Assembly (NCBI GenBank): GCA_003134045.1
Contig: PLAH01000027.1
Coordinates: 368-32,781, forward strand
Length of the DNA stretch: 32,414 nucleotides
Direction of reading: 5' to 3'
Source: Gammaproteobacteria bacterium
GTDB taxonomy: Bacteria > Pseudomonadota > Gammaproteobacteria > Steroidobacterales > Steroidobacteraceae
Shown: piece by piece, positions 839 through 32,414 of the stretch
Layout of the letters: the number at the start of each line of letters is the position of its first letter
Numbering within the stretch: the first letter of the stretch is position 1
Made by a program: the position numbers and the translations under genes
Notes under the pieces: generated by a model
Told to the model about the DNA's origin: nothing
Seen by the model: the letters and a program-made list of their open reading frames with translations, nothing else
The model's database searches: none

Positions 839-2932
<2,094 letters not shown>

Positions 2933-2939
2933 GTGTCTC

Positions 2940-3119
2940 GCGCTTCGCGCTGAATTAACGGGCTATATCCATGCGCTTCGCGCAACTTTAAACGGGGCCA
3001 ATGAGGCCCCGCCCGATAGTTGCTCGCTGCGCGAGCATTTAATCAATTTACCCGCCGGGCGACCCATGTCGCCGGCGGCCCTCTCTATATGGGGTCTCGC
3101 CGCCGCTTTCCCAAGCGGC
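2940..3119 (-). promoter_or_regulatory. Array of six small hairpins in the rpsG-fusA spacer
   Basis: Between the rpsG stop and the fusA start lie consecutive perfect or near-perfect inverted repeats. They are 3102-3119 (7-bp stem, 4-nt loop), 3052-3078 (11 pairs with one bulged G, 4-nt loop), 3021-3037 (7-bp stem, TGC loop), 2993-3011 (7-bp stem, 5-nt loop), 2972-2984 (5-bp stem, TTC loop) and 2940-2950 (4-bp stem, TTC loop). The last two share the 11-mer GCGCTTCGCGC. None is followed by a clear U-tract, so none is a convincing intrinsic terminator. The transcript here would be a chain of stem-loops ending just before the fusA start. Possible roles are RNA processing, a ribosomal-protein binding site or translational control, all inferred. 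Confidence 0.6.
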
Positions 3120-3127
3120 AGGCCACC

Positions 3128-3616
<489 letters not shown>

Positions 3617-3625
3617 CTACTTTAG

Positions 3626-4000
3626 TTATTTCTTCGGACGCTTCGCGCCGTACTTGGAACGGCCTTGGCGACGGTCGGTAACGCCGGCGCAATCGAGCGC
3701 ACCGCGCACCGTGTGGTAACGCACGCCGGGAAGATCCTTGACGCGGCCGCCACGGATCAACACCACCGAGTGCTCTTGCAAATTGTGGCCTTCGCCGCCG
3801 ATGTAGCTCGATACCTCGTAGCCGTTGGTCAACCGCACGCGGCACACCTTGCGCAGGGCCGAGTTGGGCTTCTTCGGCGTGGTGGTGTACACGCGAGTGC
3901 ACACACCGCGCTTCTGCGGTGACGCCGCCAGCGCCGGAACCTTGGACTTCCAAGCGGGCTCATTGCGGCCGGTACGAATAAGTTGGGTCGTCGTCGCCAT
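3626..4000 (-). CDS. rpsL: 30S ribosomal protein S12
   Basis: S12 sits at the decoding centre of the 30S subunit and influences accuracy. The 124-residue product has the expected family length and carries [20 protein letters not shown] near residues 29-48, and the loop [13 protein letters not shown]. The two lysines whose substitution gives streptomycin resistance in other bacteria are both lysine here (Lys43 and the lysine of RVKDLPG). The sequence therefore shows no rpsL-type resistance allele. The aspartate after that second lysine is the residue methylthiolated by RimO in E. coli. It is the first gene of the str operon, with a leader of about 100 nt from the promoter at 4110-4138 and an AAGGT ribosome-binding site upstream of the ATG. 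Confidence 0.98.
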
Positions 4001-4245: not shown

Positions 4246-6348
4246 CTAGCGAAACTGCGGATGCCCCTCAACGGCGGCGCACCAGGAGACGTCGTCGGCG
4301 CTGACACCGTGCGGCGTCCGGGCATCGCTGCGCCGCCATTTGTCGAGCCACTCCTGTCCCAGGAGTTCGCGCCCGTGCGCCAGACCGGCTGCACGCGCGG
4401 TAAGCCCGACGGTGGTTTCTGCCTTCGGTCCCGTACCGCGGCCCTTGGCCACATGGAATCCTGCGGCCAACATCGCCGCGCGCACGCGGGTTGAATAGGT
4501 GTACGTGAACAGTTCGGCGGCCCTGTCGGCCAGAACATTCGCCAGTTCACGAAACGCACCCAACGTCCACAATGCGCTGTCGCTCTTGAACGAGAACGGA
4601 TCGAAGAAAATGATATCGGGCAGCGGCGCTTCGAACTTGCGCGCGCCAAAATCACCGCGCAGCAGCGTCCAGTCGATCGAGCCGGCAGCATCGGTCCAGC
4701 GATCTCGGGCCAACAGCGACCATGGCGCCGGATGATGCAGATGTTTGAACCATGCGGGATGCCGCAAGGCGAGCGCCAATGAATCCAGGTCATTTTCGAA
4801 ACTGACCAGCTTCAGTACGCGTGCGCTGCCGCCCGCACGCTGCGCTTCGCCCACGGGCGGCGGCACGCCCCGGTACGGCGGGCCGGCCAGGTGCGGCATG
4901 CTCCGAGACAGCGCCGCCAGCTCCGACATCGTCTCGACCGCGTGAATCGCGGCCATCGCATTCGCCGCCGCGCCCAAGCCCACGTCCCACACCACGAGCG
5001 GCGCGCCACCCCCGTCCCGCAGGCGCTCGACCAGGCCCGACTGCTCGACGTAAAGAGACCGCGCCTCTTCGGCCGGATCGTTGACCGAATGCATGACTTC
5101 GCCGGAGACCGTGTCGCGAATGCGGCCCACGCCGCCGCCGACCACGACCTCGTAACGGCCGAGATTCAACTTCTGTTTTTGCCGCTGCGCCTTGGTGACG
5201 TGACGCACCGGCGGTCCGTAGCTGTCGCGCGCATCCAGCACATCGCGCTGGGCACGGTAGAACTCGAGCCAGGTATCCGCAAGGATGTGCTCGCGCATGG
5301 TGCGCATCAGCTGCATATAGAAGTGCACGTTGTGCAGCCCCAGGAGCTGCCATCCCTGCGGCTCACTCACGCGATGCAAATGGAACAGATAGGCAATCGA
5401 GTAGGTGGCGCACGTAGGGCATCCGCACGCGGGGTCGATCGGGCCCTCCAGGGTCCGGTAAGCGGCCCGCCGCAGGTCGCGGCGCCCGACGCTGGTAAAG
5501 GCAACGCCTTGCTTCGCCAACGCCGTCGGCAGGATGCAGTCGAACATGTCGACGCCACGATGCACGGCCTCGAGCAGATCTCGCGTCGTGCCGACGCCCA
5601 TCAGATAGCGAGGACGATCCTGCGGCAGCAGTTCGGTGACGATGGCGGTGCAGTCCTCGCGCTCGCCTGCCCCCTCGCCCACGGCCAAGCCGCCGATCGC
5701 GAAACCATCGAACGGCATCTCCGTGATCGCCCGTGCGCTCTGCGCGCGCAGATCCGCATAGCTTGCCCCTTGCACGATGCCGAACAAGGCCTGCGGCGAA
5801 TCGCCGCGCGCATCCAGGCTGCGCTGGGCCCAGCGGTGCGTCAGATGCATGGCCTGCTCGGCGATACCGCGCTCAACGGTCGACGGCACGCATTGATCGA
5901 GAACCATCATGATGTCGCTGCCGATGGCTCGCTGCGCGGCAATGCTGCTCTCGGGGCTCAGGCGCACCGTCGTCTGATCGACATAACTCTTGAATTGGGC
6001 GCATTCCTCGGTGATGGAGCGGCTTCCGGGCAGCGAGAAGATCTGGAATCCGCCGGAATCGGTCAACACCGAGCGCGGCCAATTCATGAATCGATGTATG
6101 CCCCCGAACTGTTCGAACAGCTCGACTCCGGGCCGCAGCATCAAATGATAGGTGTTCGTGAGCAGTATTCGAGCACCGCTCTCCAGTACGTCTTCGCGCC
6201 GCTGAGCACGCACGGCCCCGTGCGTCCCCACCGGCATGAACGTGGGCGTGAGCACCTCGTTGTGCAGCGTGCGAAAACGCGCCGCACGGGCGCGCGAGCC
6301 CGATGCGGTGGCCTGCAAACTGAAATCGAGCCGCGAGTGCCGCGTCAT
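4246..6348 (-). CDS. tgt: Fused tRNA-guanine transglycosylase / MnmC-type methyltransferase
   Basis: The 700-residue product is about twice normal Tgt length. Residues 1-375 form a Tgt domain, which exchanges G34 of GUN tRNAs for a 7-deazaguanine. It has DSGGF at 97-101 (general acid/base Asp97), VLDQC with Asp151, FAIGGLAVGEG at 216-226, nucleophile Asp270 in MFDC, and zinc ligands Cys308, Cys310, Cys313 and His339. After a basic linker (about 388-398), residues 400-655 resemble the SAM-dependent methyltransferase domain of MnmC/MnmD (mnm5U34 formation). This part has the SAM loop VWDVGLGAAANAMAAI at 453-468, acidic SFEND, and FFDPFSFKSDSALWT at 580-594. The loop after Asp270 reads LPTALAK instead of the usual LPTR. 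The start is the ATG at 6346-6348, which overlaps the hutI stop as ATGA. A longer reading from 6411 would add 21 arginine-rich residues inside hutI and is rejected. Joint action on tRNA position 34 is inferred. Confidence 0.9.
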   Translation of the reverse strand: MTRHSRLDFSLQATASGSRARAARFRTLHNEVLTPTFMPVGTHGAVRAQRREDVLESGARILLTNTYHLMLRPGVELFEQFGGIHRFMNWPRSVLTDSGGFQIFSLPGSRSITEECAQFKSYVDQTTVRLSPESSIAAQRAIGSDIMMVLDQCVPSTVERGIAEQAMHLTHRWAQRSLDARGDSPQALFGIVQGASYADLRAQSARAITEMPFDGFAIGGLAVGEGAGEREDCTAIVTELLPQDRPRYLMGVGTTRDLLEAVHRGVDMFDCILPTALAKQGVAFTSVGRRDLRRAAYRTLEGPIDPACGCPTCATYSIAYLFHLHRVSEPQGWQLLGLHNVHFYMQLMRTMREHILADTWLEFYRAQRDVLDARDSYGPPVRHVTKAQRQKQKLNLGRYEVVVGGGVGRIRDTVSGEVMHSVNDPAEEARSLYVEQSGLVERLRDGGGAPLVVWDVGLGAAANAMAAIHAVETMSELAALSRSMPHLAGPPYRGVPPPVGEAQRAGGSARVLKLVSFENDLDSLALALRHPAWFKHLHHPAPWSLLARDRWTDAAGSIDWTLLRGDFGARKFEAPLPDIIFFDPFSFKSDSALWTLGAFRELANVLADRAAELFTYTYSTRVRAAMLAAGFHVAKGRGTGPKAETTVGLTARAAGLAHGRELLGQEWLDKWRRSDARTPHGVSADDVSWCAAVEGHPQFR

Positions 6349-7625
6349 CGTCCGTGCAGCACAGCCCCTGCGTCTGCGCGAGCGATGCCGCTGCGTACCA
6401 CGCCCACGCAAGGATTGGCGCCAAGGTTGTAGCAGAGCTCCGCGGGGCGATCGATATCGTACAAGGCAAAGTCCGCACGCTTGCCCACCTCGAGCGTGCC
6501 GGCGTCGGCTTCAATGCCGAGCGCCTGCGCGGCGTGCCGAGTTGCCCCGCTCAGTGCTTCTGCCGGCGTCAGCCCGAACAAGGTACAGCCCATGTTGAGC
6601 GCAAGCAGCAAGGAGGTGCACGGCGAACTGCCGGGATTGCAATCGGTCGCCACCGCCATCGCCACACCCGCCTGCCGCAGCAGCGCCACGGGCGGCGGCG
6701 TGGTCTGACGCAGCGTGAAATAGGCGCCCGGCGAGAGCACCGCCACGGTGCCGGCGGCGGCGAGCGCGGCCGCTCCACCCGCGCTCAGGTATTCCAGATG
6801 ATCGGCGGACAGCGCGTGGTATTTCGCCGCCAACTCCGCTCCGCCCATATCGGTCAGCTGGCCCGCATGCACGTGAGCACGCAAGCCGAGTTTTTGCGCC
6901 GCGCGCAGGAATTGCTCGGTCTCCGCGAGCGTAAAAGCAATGTTCTCGCAAAACGCATCCACGGCGTCCACCAGTCCCGCGGCCGCCAGCGATTCGAGCC
7001 ACGGGCCGCTCGCCCTGGCCACGAACTCCGCACGGTCCGTGCGGAATTCCTGCGGCAGCGCATGCAGGCCGAGATAGGTCGTGCGAATGGATACGGGCAG
7101 CCGTAACCCAAGTTCGCGGGCAACCTCGAGCAAGCGGCGCTCGGTGTCGAGTTCCAAACCATAGCCGGACTTCACTTCGATCGTGGTGACGCCCTCGGCC
7201 ATCAAGCGTTTCGCCCGTCCGGTCGCCGACGCCAGCAGCGACTCGGCGTCCGCGGCGCGAGTTGCGTTGACGGTGGATTGAATCCCGCCGCCGGCCCGTG
7301 CGATTTCCTCGTAGGAAACGCCGCACAGGCGCTTCTCGAACTCCTCGACCCGATTGCCGCCGTACACCAAGTGCGTATGGCAATCGATCAGGCCCGGCAA
7401 CATCCACAAGCCCCGGCAATTCTCCACGGGGACGTTCCGCGCCGAGGCCGTGGCGCGAGCGTCGGCCGCTGCTCCCACCCAGGCGATTTTGCCGCCCTTG
7501 ACCGCGAGAGCCGCATCGACCATGCCGCCATAGGGCTCGCCGCCCGCGGCCATGGTCGCGATATTCGCGCCGATCCAAACCCGGTCCCACTCTCGATCGT
7601 CTAATGTCGGCACGTGCAAGCCCAT
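6345..7625 (-). CDS. hutI: Imidazolonepropionase
   Basis: HutI hydrolyses 4-imidazolone-5-propionate to N-formimino-L-glutamate, the third step of cytoplasmic histidine degradation. The protein is an amidohydrolase-fold metalloenzyme of 426 residues from the ATG at 7623-7625. Metal-binding DCHTHLVYGGNR lies at residues 81-92, followed by VEEFEKRLCGVSYEEIA, the segment IEVKSGYGL, the metal histidine motif HVHAGQ, SADHLEY and ATDCNPGSSP. A TTG 18 bp upstream (7643) is in frame but has no better ribosome-binding site, so the ATG is preferred. It is transcribed divergently from hutF across an 88-bp gap holding a palindrome. Its stop overlaps the tgt fusion start, so the two are expected to be one transcript. 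Confidence 0.96.
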   Translation of the reverse strand: MGLHVPTLDDREWDRVWIGANIATMAAGGEPYGGMVDAALAVKGGKIAWVGAAADARATASARNVPVENCRGLWMLPGLIDCHTHLVYGGNRVEEFEKRLCGVSYEEIARAGGGIQSTVNATRAADAESLLASATGRAKRLMAEGVTTIEVKSGYGLELDTERRLLEVARELGLRLPVSIRTTYLGLHALPQEFRTDRAEFVARASGPWLESLAAAGLVDAVDAFCENIAFTLAETEQFLRAAQKLGLRAHVHAGQLTDMGGAELAAKYHALSADHLEYLSAGGAAALAAAGTVAVLSPGAYFTLRQTTPPPVALLRQAGVAMAVATDCNPGSSPCTSLLLALNMGCTLFGLTPAEALSGATRHAAQALGIEADAGTLEVGKRADFALYDIDRPAELCYNLGANPCVGVVRSGIARADAGAVLHGR

Positions 7626-7693
7626 TGTTTGATGTTCCGCCAATGATACGGCACGGGACCGCCGGCGACCGGCGGACCCTGCTAGGCTCTCTC

Positions 7694-23266: not shown

Positions 23267-24130
23267 ATGGCGCATCGAGCACTGTGGCGGGGAGCCATTT
23301 CGTTTGGCCTGATTTACGTGCCCGTGGAGATGTACGCAGCGGCCCGCGACGGGACGCTGCATCTTCATCTGTTGGACAGCCGCGATTTCGCGCCCGTCGG
23401 CTATGAGCGCGTCAACAAGAAAACAGGCAAGGTCGTCGAGTGGTCCGACATCGTCAAGGGTTACGAATATCAAAAAGGCCGTTATGTCGCCCTATCCGAT
23501 GCCGATTTCAAACATGCCAATGTCAAGGCGTCGGAAACCATCGAAGTGTCGAGCTTCAGCGAGACCGCGGACATTTCGCCGGTGTATTTCGAGACACCCT
23601 ACTATCTCGTTCCCGGCAAGGGGGGCCAAAAAGTCTATGCGCTATTGCGTGAGACCCTGCGGGCGACCCACAAGGCCGCCGTCGCGAGTTTCGTCATGCG
23701 CGGACGCCAACATTTATGCCTGGTGGCCCCGCAGGGCCGCGCCCTCATGCTGATGACTTTGCGCTTCCCCGACGAATTGCTTCCAGCCGGGGATCTGGAT
23801 TTGCCGGCGGCCTCGCTCAAGGGCGCCAAGATCAGCAGCGCGGAGTTGCACATGGCGCAGAAGCTCGTCGAAGAAATGACTTCGCCGTGGACGCCGCAGG
23901 CATTCAAGGACACGTACCGGGCGGATCTCATGCGGCGTATTCAGGAGAAAATCCGCAAGAAACAGACGCACGATATTGCCGAGGCCGAGCCCACGGTGCC
24001 CGAGAGACCGAAGGCGCAGGTCATCGATTTGATGGAAGCGCTGCGCAACAGCCTGAAGGCCGGCGGCAAAAGGTCCGCCGCGCCACGCGCCGCACAGCGC
24101 TCGACCGCGAAGCCACGCCAGCGGGCGTAG
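23267..24130 (+). CDS. ku: Bacterial Ku, DNA end-binding protein of non-homologous end joining
   Basis: Bacterial Ku forms a homodimeric ring on double-strand DNA ends and recruits LigD. The 287-residue protein shows the hallmark start RALWRGAISFGLIYVPVEMY, then HLLDSRDFAPVGYERVNKKTGK, a GYEYQKGRYV segment, PVYFETPYYLVPGKGG, and the bridge/core region through KQTHDI. Residues about 240-287 form a lysine/arginine/alanine-rich tail, as in many Ku proteins with extra DNA-binding tails. The ATG has a strong AAAGGGGAAG ribosome-binding site. ligD is not in the window. ku converges with the permease, with only 5 bp between stop codons. Confidence 0.97.
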   Translation: MAHRALWRGAISFGLIYVPVEMYAAARDGTLHLHLLDSRDFAPVGYERVNKKTGKVVEWSDIVKGYEYQKGRYVALSDADFKHANVKASETIEVSSFSETADISPVYFETPYYLVPGKGGQKVYALLRETLRATHKAAVASFVMRGRQHLCLVAPQGRALMLMTLRFPDELLPAGDLDLPAASLKGAKISSAELHMAQKLVEEMTSPWTPQAFKDTYRADLMRRIQEKIRKKQTHDIAEAEPTVPERPKAQVIDLMEALRNSLKAGGKRSAAPRAAQRSTAKPRQRA

Positions 24131-30221: not shown

Positions 30222-32414
30222 TTATTCGGCAGCTTCAGTATCCCCCGCCGGTACAGTGTCGTCTGAGTCACCCATACCGCCACTGACATCCATGAAACTG
30301 CGGCGTCGGCTGTCATCAAAAGCACGTCGGCGACGCGCATGATACGCGAACCCGGTGCCCGCGGGAATGAGTCGGCCAACAATAACGTTCTCTTTTAACC
30401 CGCGCAGATCGTCCTTCAGGCCCCGAACCGCCGCCTCGGTGAGGACGCGGGTTGTTTCCTGGAACGAAGCCGCCGAAATGAACGATTCGGTGGCCAAAGA
30501 CGCCTTGGTAATGCCCAGCAACATGGGTTCCCACGTCGACTGGTGCTTGCCCTCGGCCTTCTGCTTGGCAATGACGTCCAAGAGCCGCCCCCTATCCATC
30601 TGTTCGCCCCGCAGCAGCGCCGAATCGCCGGCGTCCAACACCTCGATTTTCCGTAACATCTGCCGCACGATGACTTCGATGTGCTTGTCGTTGATCTTCA
30701 CGCCCTGCAGCCGATACACGTCCTGAATCTCGCGAACCAGGTAGTTGGCCAGTGCCTCGACGCCTCGGAGCCGCAAGATATCGTGCGGGTTGGGCTCGCC
30801 ATCGGCAATGACTTCGCCCTTGTCCACCTGTTCGCCTTCGAACACGTTGAGATGACGCCACTTGGGAATCAGCTCCTCGTACTTGTCGCTGGCCTCGTTG
30901 GTGATGATCAAGCGGCGCTTGCCCTTGGTCTCCTTGCCGAAGCTCACCGTACCGCTGCGCTCCGCCAGAATCGCGGAATCCTTCGGCTTGCGCGCCTCGA
31001 ACAAGTCGGCCACGCGCGGCAGACCGCCCGTGATGTCGCGGGTCTTGGAGGACTCCTGCGGGATACGCGCGATGACGTCGCCCACCGACACCTTGGAACC
31101 GTCTTCCAGGCTGACGATGGCGCCCGCCGGCAAGGCGTAGACCGCCGGAATGTCCGTATTGGCGAAGGTGACTTCCTTGCCCTTGGCATTGGTCAGGCGC
31201 ACCACCGGACGCAGGTCCTTGCCGCCCGAACCGCGCTGCTTCGGATCCAGCACGACCGTGCTCGACAAACCGGTGACGTCGTCCACCTGAGTCGTGACGG
31301 TGATGCCGTCGACGAAATCGGAGAACTTGATCATACCGGCCACTTCGGTGACCACGGGGTGAGTATGCGGATCCCAGTTCGCGACCGACTGCCCTGCGCT
31401 GACCACATCCGCATCGTTCACGGTGATGGTGGCGCCGTAGGGGATCTTGTAACGCTCGCGCTCGCGGCCGAACTCATCAACCACGCCCAGTTCACCGGAG
31501 CGGGAGACCGCGACCAGATGACCCTTCTCGTGGCGCACCGTCTTGATGTTGTGCAGGCGAATGGTGCCCTTGCTCTTGACTTCGACGCCGTTGGCCGCCG
31601 CCGCTCGCGAGGCCGCGCCGCCGACGTGGAAGGTGCGCATGGTGAGCTGGGTTCCCGGCTCGCCGATCGACTGCGCCGCGATGACGCCCACCGCTTCGCC
31701 GATGTTGATGCGATGACCGCGGCCCAGATCGCGGCCGTAGCACTGCGCACAAACGCCGTAGCGGGTTTCGCAGGTGATGGGCGAACGCACCATGACCTGA
31801 TCCACACCCATCTTTTCCAAGAGCTTGACCAGCTTTTCATCGATCAAGACACCTGCCTTGACCAATACTTCGCCGGTGGAGGCCATGACGACATCTTCCG
31901 AGACCACGCGGCCCAGAACCCGCTCGCCCAGGCCTTCGACCACGTCGCCGCCCTCGACGATGGGCGTGATGGACAAGCCGTAACCCGTGCCGCAATCGAT
32001 TTCGGTGACCACCAGATCCTGCGCCACATCGACCAGACGACGCGTCAGGTACCCGGAGTTCGCCGTCTTCAATGCGGTGTCGGCCAAGCCTTTACGCGCG
32101 CCGTGCGTCGAGATGAAGTACTGCAGTACGTTCAAGCCTTCACGGAAATTCGCCGTGATCGGCGTTTCGATGATGGAACCGTCGGGCTTCGCCATGAGTC
32201 CGCGCATGCCGGCCAGCTGACGAATCTGCGCGGCGGAACCGCGAGCGCCCGAGTCGGCCATCATGAAAATCGAATTGAAGGACTTCTGACGGACTTTGTT
32301 GCCCTTGGAGTCGGTGACCTCGTCGGTGCCCAACTTCTCCATCATGGCCTTGGCCACCTGGTCGTTGGTACGCGACCAGATGTCGACCACCTTGTTGTAG
32401 CGCTCGCCGTTGGT
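30222..32414 (-). CDS. rpoC: RNA polymerase beta' subunit, C-terminal part (gene runs off the window)
   Basis: This is the beta' subunit of RNA polymerase, of which about 730 C-terminal residues are visible. Family signatures include [20 protein letters not shown], then [17 protein letters not shown] in the bridge-helix/trigger-loop region. The zinc-binding cysteine cluster follows as [16 protein letters not shown], then [30 protein letters not shown] and, near the end, [10 protein letters not shown]. The frame is open to the window edge, so the start and catalytic NADFDGD motif lie outside. The acidic C-terminus ends at 30222 and is followed by the intrinsic terminator. In many gammaproteobacteria rpsL follows directly; here it is 26 kb away. 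Confidence 0.98.

Follow-up and report, generated by a model that had tools for sequence, protein, structure and literature searches.

A tRNA-guanine transglycosylase fused to an MnmC2-like methyltransferase, a candidate two-step wobble-base enzyme in genomes that usually retain an ordinary tgt

The fused gene and its two halves

In a 32,414-nucleotide stretch of DNA from a gammaproteobacterium of the family Steroidobacteraceae (GenBank assembly GCA_003134045.1, contig PLAH01000027.1, positions 368 to 32,781 of the forward strand; hereafter the window), a single open reading frame joins a tRNA-guanine transglycosylase (TGT) to a methyltransferase of the MnmC2/MnmD type. This Tgt-MnmD fusion gene spans positions 4246 to 6348 and comprises 700 codons plus a stop, as given in the initial annotation of the window, which omitted the strand; it lies on the minus strand, as do all of its parts described below, with its ATG at 6348 and its stop codon at 4246-4248. 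The pairing of a Tgt with an MnmC/MnmD-like domain that the annotation proposed is borne out by two Pfam matches, TGT (PF01702) at residues 19-366 (positions 5251 to 6294; E 5.6e-133) and Methyltransf_30 (PF05430) at residues 575-649 (E 2.2e-12; 47.4 bits against a cut-off of 22), and no third Pfam domain was found in the protein up to E 0.1. When compared with NCBIfam models, the window protein passes TIGR00430 for Tgt (412.7 bits; cut-off 306.75) and misses the MnmC2 equivalog NF033855 (65.3 bits; cut-off 136), and it falls below the models for DpdA, which acts in 7-deazaguanine insertion into DNA (17.9 bits; cut-off 200), and for archaeal TgtA, which acts at position 15 (133.1 bits; cut-off 350). 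All 47 fusion members tested match both Pfam families (PF05430 at E up to 0.001) as well as the TIGR00430 model. An interdomain linker can be placed approximately at residues 374-392 (5173 to 5229), where the predicted local distance difference test (pLDDT) values are 80 and 72 for the blocks at residues 371-390, and the methyltransferase part, modelled alone as residues 383-700, corresponds to positions 4249 to 5202. On the sequence evidence, we regard the joining of a complete bacterial-type TGT to a complete MnmC2/MnmD-type methyltransferase as real.

To compare the TGT half with its unfused relatives, we aligned 75 fusions (the window protein, five loci from its order, Steroidobacterales, and 69 of 71 intact frames from a wider scan, the other two having duplicated loci of the order, with some near relatives among the rest) with 29 ordinary TGTs (26 from wider carriers of the fusion, one from the source genome, and those of E. 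coli and Z. mobilis); residue numbers in this comparison are those of Z. mobilis. D102, which acts in catalysis (Asp97 of the window protein, 6058 to 6060), and the nucleophile D280 (Asp270, 5539 to 5541) are present in 75/75 fusions and 29/29 ordinary TGTs. The fusions are also identical throughout at D156, C158, Q203, G230, L231, A232, V233, G234, E235 and M260 and at the zinc-site residues C318, C320, C323 and H349 (C308, C310, C313 and H339 of the window protein, 5332 to 5427); D156, C158, Q203, G230, L231 and V233 belong to the guanine/preQ1 pocket. Catalytic residues, zinc site and the pocket for preQ1 (7-aminomethyl-7-deazaguanine) are thus invariant across the family, and the zinc ligands and paired aspartates that the annotation had recognized in one protein are features of every fusion aligned. 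V233 and C158 indicate a preQ1-type pocket, the queuine-using eukaryotic enzymes having Gly and Val there (PMC4425180).

Whereas the fusions resemble bacterial Tgt (as represented by the Z. mobilis, E. coli and T. maritima structures) in whole fold, catalytic aspartates, zinc site, preQ1 pocket and dimer residues, they differ in a segment predicted to read the RNA. Ordinary TGTs mostly have TRxxRNG in this loop, which in the window protein is rewritten as TALAKQG (residues 275-281, 5506 to 5526). R286 is found in 29/29 ordinary TGTs and in 0/75 fusions (Q in 53, S in 11, A in 10 and L in one), R289 in 29/29 and 4/75, respectively (Q in 58), and the window protein has Ala276 and Lys279 at these two positions; neither arginine occurs in any of 12 fusions read from a sample of the phylum to which Chthoniobacter belongs. 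The pair is kept in L198 and L200, two unfused TGTs outside the alignment. Further departures from bacterial Tgt are the replacement of N290 by R or Q and, in 72/75 fusions, of G69 by A and of positions 161-162 by Ser-Thr, in addition to the C-terminal methyltransferase itself and to the presence of the fusion as a second copy beside an ordinary gene. In the Z. mobilis TGT-RNA structure of Xie et al. 2003 (1q2r), R286 and R289 reportedly read the bases that flank G34, namely U33 and U35. By contrast with the arginines, seven positions are conserved in at least 74 of the 75 fusions: T47, position 52 (K or R), D267 and D280, which lie near the RNA, and W95, Y330 and H333, which have been mutated in solved dimers. 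Bacterial TGT requires a U33-G34-U35 loop (PMC4425180). We file the fusion as a member of the TGT superfamily outside the equivalog of Tgt enzymes that act on tRNAs with GUN anticodons.

The second half contains the S-adenosylmethionine (SAM) binding loop that the annotation had seen, WDVGLGAAAN (residues 454-463, 4960 to 4989), and with the next residue included (WDVGLGAAANA) it aligns with MnmC2. Together with this loop, the acidic residue after strand 2 and the motif IV Asp of MnmC2 are retained in the fusions, the predicted structure has the MnmC2 fold, and MnmC2 is the best match by both sequence and fold; the next fold neighbours are aminopropyltransferases and an archaeal m4(2)C synthase. 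Assignment to another methyltransferase family, which the annotation had named as a result that would overturn it, was rejected, as none matched better than MnmC2 by either measure. Set against the E. coli MnmC N-terminal domain (2qy6) and Aquifex MnmC2 (3vyw), a protein reportedly treated by Kitamura et al. 2012, the fusion is alike in fold, SAM loop, strand-2 acid and motif IV Asp, but scores below the MnmC2 cut-off and has an altered motif IV, DPFSFKSDSALW in the window protein (residues 583-594, 4567 to 4602). At this site the sequence of MnmC2 from E. coli and from Aquifex is DxF[AS]PxxNPxxW, and a close form occurs in the other MnmC/MnmD frames read, whereas the fusions mostly have DPFSxKTDxxLW: among 47 of them, Pro follows DxFS in 2/47, NP remains in 1/47 and Asp stands at the former Asn in 41/47, and the plain DPFS form was seen in 9/12 fusions read from the Chthoniobacter phylum. 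The partner domain also differs, being a TGT in the fusion and the MnmC1 oxidase in E. coli MnmC. The nearest branches in the methyltransferase tree are three unfused MnmD-like proteins, L175, L181 and L195 (the last from Chthoniobacter flavus), each of which comes from a genome that also carries the fusion (G549, G542 and G543, respectively). They share a C-terminal W..RS..P with the fusions, and L195 also HPQF, but have no TGT, being frames of 286-319 codons. In all three, motif IV still has the S-P and P-E-L/M-W form, so that among the proteins read its alteration goes with fusion. We file the methyltransferase of the fusion as MnmC2-like and not as MnmC2.

Occurrence and coexistence with ordinary genes

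Within the order, the fusion was found in 7 of the 296 genomes sampled: the source genome, three of the eight others from its genus, one genome from another genus of the family and two from another family. Beyond the order, a scan of a species-genome collection returned at least 585 pattern matches, of which 240 among those listed encode relatives; the best 80 were kept and comprise 71 intact fused frames, seven cut by a contig end and two in broken frames (L103 and L108, where either assembly errors or real decay are possible). Taxa named among these 80 include Verrucomicrobia, Oligoflexia, Bdellovibrionales, Riflebacteria, Spirochaetia, deltaproteobacteria, Binatia, Eisenbacteria, Sulfopaludibacter and Gammaproteobacteria, and nearly all of the records are metagenome-assembled genomes (MAGs), Chthoniobacter flavus Ellin428 being one not so labelled. 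In a sample of 288 genomes from the phylum of Chthoniobacter, which includes the C. flavus genome and one other known carrier, 14 passed E 1e-30, and all 12 of the hits read are fusions (two of them from genomes sampled before; G737 and G749, at E about 1e-32 to 1e-31, were left out of the reading). The domain pair thus recurs in independent genomes. A class-level search matched 29 of 229 genomes, only the source genome strongly; the remaining matches reach at best 2.5e-7 over about 60-110 residues and are probably ordinary MnmC. When 72,556 plasmids were searched with tblastn, 70 records matched, but identity stayed under 60% in every one and no match spanned 80% of the query.

In an unrooted tree of TGT domains, all 75 fusions lie on one side of a single branch (support 0.987) and all 29 ordinary TGTs on the other, and for 47 members the tree distances of one half correlate with those of the other (r 0.70; 0/999 permutations as high). 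Judged from these sequences, the split and the correlation fit one fusion event followed by joint descent.

The fusion is accompanied by an ordinary tgt nearly everywhere. Two TGTs exceed the family cut-off in 7/7 carriers of the order (one of which has a further match below it), and a single TGT was found in each of 13 non-carriers tested out of the 289 in the order. Of the two unfused genes that the annotation had considered as possible companions in the source genome, ordinary tgt is present (C160), adjoining queA, and a separate MnmC/MnmD-like frame was not found. Among 30 wider carriers, ordinary tgt was detected in 28 (two of these partial at contig ends) and not found in G536 and G551. 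In one wider carrier, G545, QueF was not matched and the fusion is accompanied by two ordinary-type TGTs (L198 and L199), each of which has the arginine pair. Other queuosine genes were traced in the order, where QueG is present in 7/7 carriers and QueA in 7/7, in G267 as a fragment only.

A separate PF05430 protein accompanies the fusion in 12 of the 30 wider carriers, four of MnmC length (648-677 codons) and eight MnmD-like (280-319 codons); three more of the 30 have weak PF05430 matches that were left out of this count. Of the eight shorter frames, L172 and L173 fall outside the nearest group of the fusion, L175, L181 and L195 are the closest sisters described above, and those of three genomes were left out of the reading. 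Because both kinds of gene coexist with it, the fusion is evidently no replacement for tgt, nor, in at least six of the 30 genomes, for MnmC/MnmD. Within the order, 11 of the 13 non-carriers have no PF05430 match, and in the remaining two the matches, read by eye, seem to have no relation to MnmD. Seven weak PF05430 matches from relatives in the order were also read, again by eye: L056 looks like a large membrane protein, and L051-L055 and L057 resemble a different methyltransferase. These last six (L051, L052, L053, L054, L055 and L057) form a separate methyltransferase-like family of about 280-300 residues with the motifs LIKLVPTxWGPPTFEIDGIKMLP and HDPPRFG that weakly matches Methyltransf_30.

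As for the surroundings of the fusion in the window, its start overlaps by four bases (ATGA) with the upstream amidohydrolase gene (hutI-like by eye; 6345 to 7643, minus strand), and the two genes are likely co-transcribed in the source genome. The genes rpsL, rpsG and fusA (839-4000) lie some 26 kb from a gene on the same strand that is rpoC-like by eye (30222-32390), and between them are the fusion, histidine degradation-like genes, Tex, a bacterial Ku-type end-joining protein gene (23267-24127; PF02735) and proline dehydrogenase/aldehyde dehydrogenase; rpoC and rpsL are found next to each other in many bacteria.

Proposed function and the alternatives

MnmC2/MnmD converts the CH2-NH2 group of 5-aminomethyluridine (nm5U) to CH2-NH-CH3, giving 5-methylaminomethyluridine (mnm5U), and QueA acts on the aminomethyl amine of preQ1 in tRNA, to which it transfers a ribosyl group. 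As CH2-NH2 on a base is common to preQ1 and nm5U, the pairing of a preQ1-inserting TGT with an MnmC2-like enzyme whose active-site loop has changed suggests, by analogy, N-methylation of preQ1 by the fusion. From the domain pair, the invariant catalytic residues, the segments altered in both halves and the coexistence with ordinary genes, we infer a substrate RNA, an inserted base and a product, and we tentatively favour a dedicated tRNA wobble-base enzyme of ancient fusion that would act in two steps, inserting preQ1 and then N-methylating it, as a second TGT alongside the queuosine pathway. The TGT half would exchange guanine for preQ1 in RNA that lacks the usual U33-G34-U35 anticodon loop, with G34 of tRNAs that have a second anticodon base other than U as the most likely site; the loss of the arginines suggests tRNAs other than those with GUN anticodons, which would avoid ordinary Tgt and QueA. 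The methyltransferase half would then use SAM to methylate the preQ1 amine, yielding 7-(methylaminomethyl)-7-deazaguanosine, and this methylation would bar the base from QueA and so separate the route from that to queuosine. If the proposal is right, fusion and QueA would be alike in making a SAM-dependent change at the aminomethyl nitrogen of preQ1, but they belong to different families, and the fusion would move a methyl where QueA moves a ribosyl group. QueF, which makes preQ1, is above its cut-off in 31 of 37 carriers (7/7 in the order and 24/30 of the wider set).

Several observations weigh against this proposal. QueF is missing or below its cut-off in the other six of the 37 carriers, and one of the 24 wider matches scores only 29 bits; draft assemblies, salvage or the use of another base would explain these gaps, and the supply of preQ1 is unproven there. 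For Arg286, PMC5395182 describes a position in a helix lining a cavity that, in a twisted dimer, lies between the R34/P35 pockets, which is not itself the contact with U33 or U35, and other residues could replace R286 and R289 as readers of U35. The correlation between the halves is weak evidence, being expected for any two co-inherited genes, and the relative orientation of the domains is uncertain in the predicted structure (predicted template modelling score, pTM, 0.65). The fusion is the sole PF05430 match in the source genome and in 15 of the 30 wider carriers, and an MnmC/MnmD clearly outside its group was seen in six of the 12 genomes with a separate frame. Finally, no recurring gene partner emerged when the 630 frames of the 80 loci, many of which have short flanks, were clustered; the largest non-fusion cluster spans seven loci (its representative is ABC transporter-like by eye), and the neighbour clusters include long antisense frames and were not identified by search.

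Among alternative explanations, the protein might be a general wobble-base station, which would place preQ1 at G34 of GUN tRNAs and independently form mnm5U34 in other tRNAs. The closest characterized relative of each domain does this, and the scarcity of other PF05430 matches noted above points the same way, as does the appearance of the extra weak matches in the order as a different methyltransferase, which leaves the fusion as the only MnmC2-like domain seen there. We nevertheless consider such a station unlikely, given that ordinary tgt coexists with the fusion, that the arginine pair and motif IV are altered, and that the PF05430 record of the 13 non-carriers implies that members of the order can do without mnm5U formed in this way. 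The annotation had offered a general station or a new substrate, and the coexisting tgt, the separate MnmC/MnmD-like frames in 12 of the 30 wider carriers (though none in the source genome), the lost arginines and the changed motif IV lead us to favour the latter. A second alternative is that preQ1 or preQ0 is inserted outside the tRNA anticodon, at another tRNA position or in rRNA or mRNA, and that the methyltransferase finishes the product. The lost arginines say only that recognition has changed, and E. coli TGT is reported to accept some non-tRNA RNA (PMC4425180), but the retention of T47, K/R 52, D267, D280, W95, Y330 and H333 suggests an anticodon-like loop, and we assign this explanation a low probability. 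It is similarly improbable, in our estimate, that a 7-deazaguanine inserted by the TGT half is followed by a methyltransferase that acts on a different atom or transfers some other SAM-derived group, for which a motif IV unlike that of MnmC2 and the aminopropyltransferases and m4(2)C synthase among the fold neighbours may be cited.

We regard as quite improbable an ordinary Tgt isozyme that serves as a back-up and carries its methyltransferase as a passenger: the TIGR00430 matches would agree with it, as would the two broken frames among the best 80 relatives if they reflect decay and not assembly error, but R286 is lost in every fusion aligned, and a passenger would decay, whereas this methyltransferase has been conserved across a wide range of taxa. 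We give virtually no credence to an assembly or annotation artefact, the other outcome that the annotation had said would overturn it, for although the source assembly consists of 197 contigs with 6.32% estimated contamination, the identical frame layout occurs in independent assemblies, including that of C. flavus Ellin428, and the fused frame recurs in the order, phylum and best-80 samples.

The usual retention of a normal tgt together with the changed recognition residues thus points to what is probably a tRNA modification for which we found no description. Literature listings, from which most subscription papers and all bioRxiv preprints were outside our scope, yielded no report of a Tgt-MnmC fusion or of N-methyl-preQ1 in tRNA, and the two matches on methylated preQ1 concern, by title, the synthesis of preQ1 derivatives. 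As the window protein passes TIGR00430 and the 47 members tested match it, automatic annotation may call the whole family plain tgt. It is possible, if doubtful, that this enzyme makes N-methyl-preQ1 specifically at G34 of non-GUN tRNAs and so constitutes, alongside queuosine, a second 7-deazaguanine wobble system in several bacterial phyla. Queuosine and mnm5U are textbook wobble hypermodifications that are treated as products of separate pathways. A widely distributed protein in which the base exchanger from one pathway is linked to the methyltransferase from the other, and in which each half has altered recognition segments, leads us to predict a new modified nucleoside together with a different group of RNA targets.
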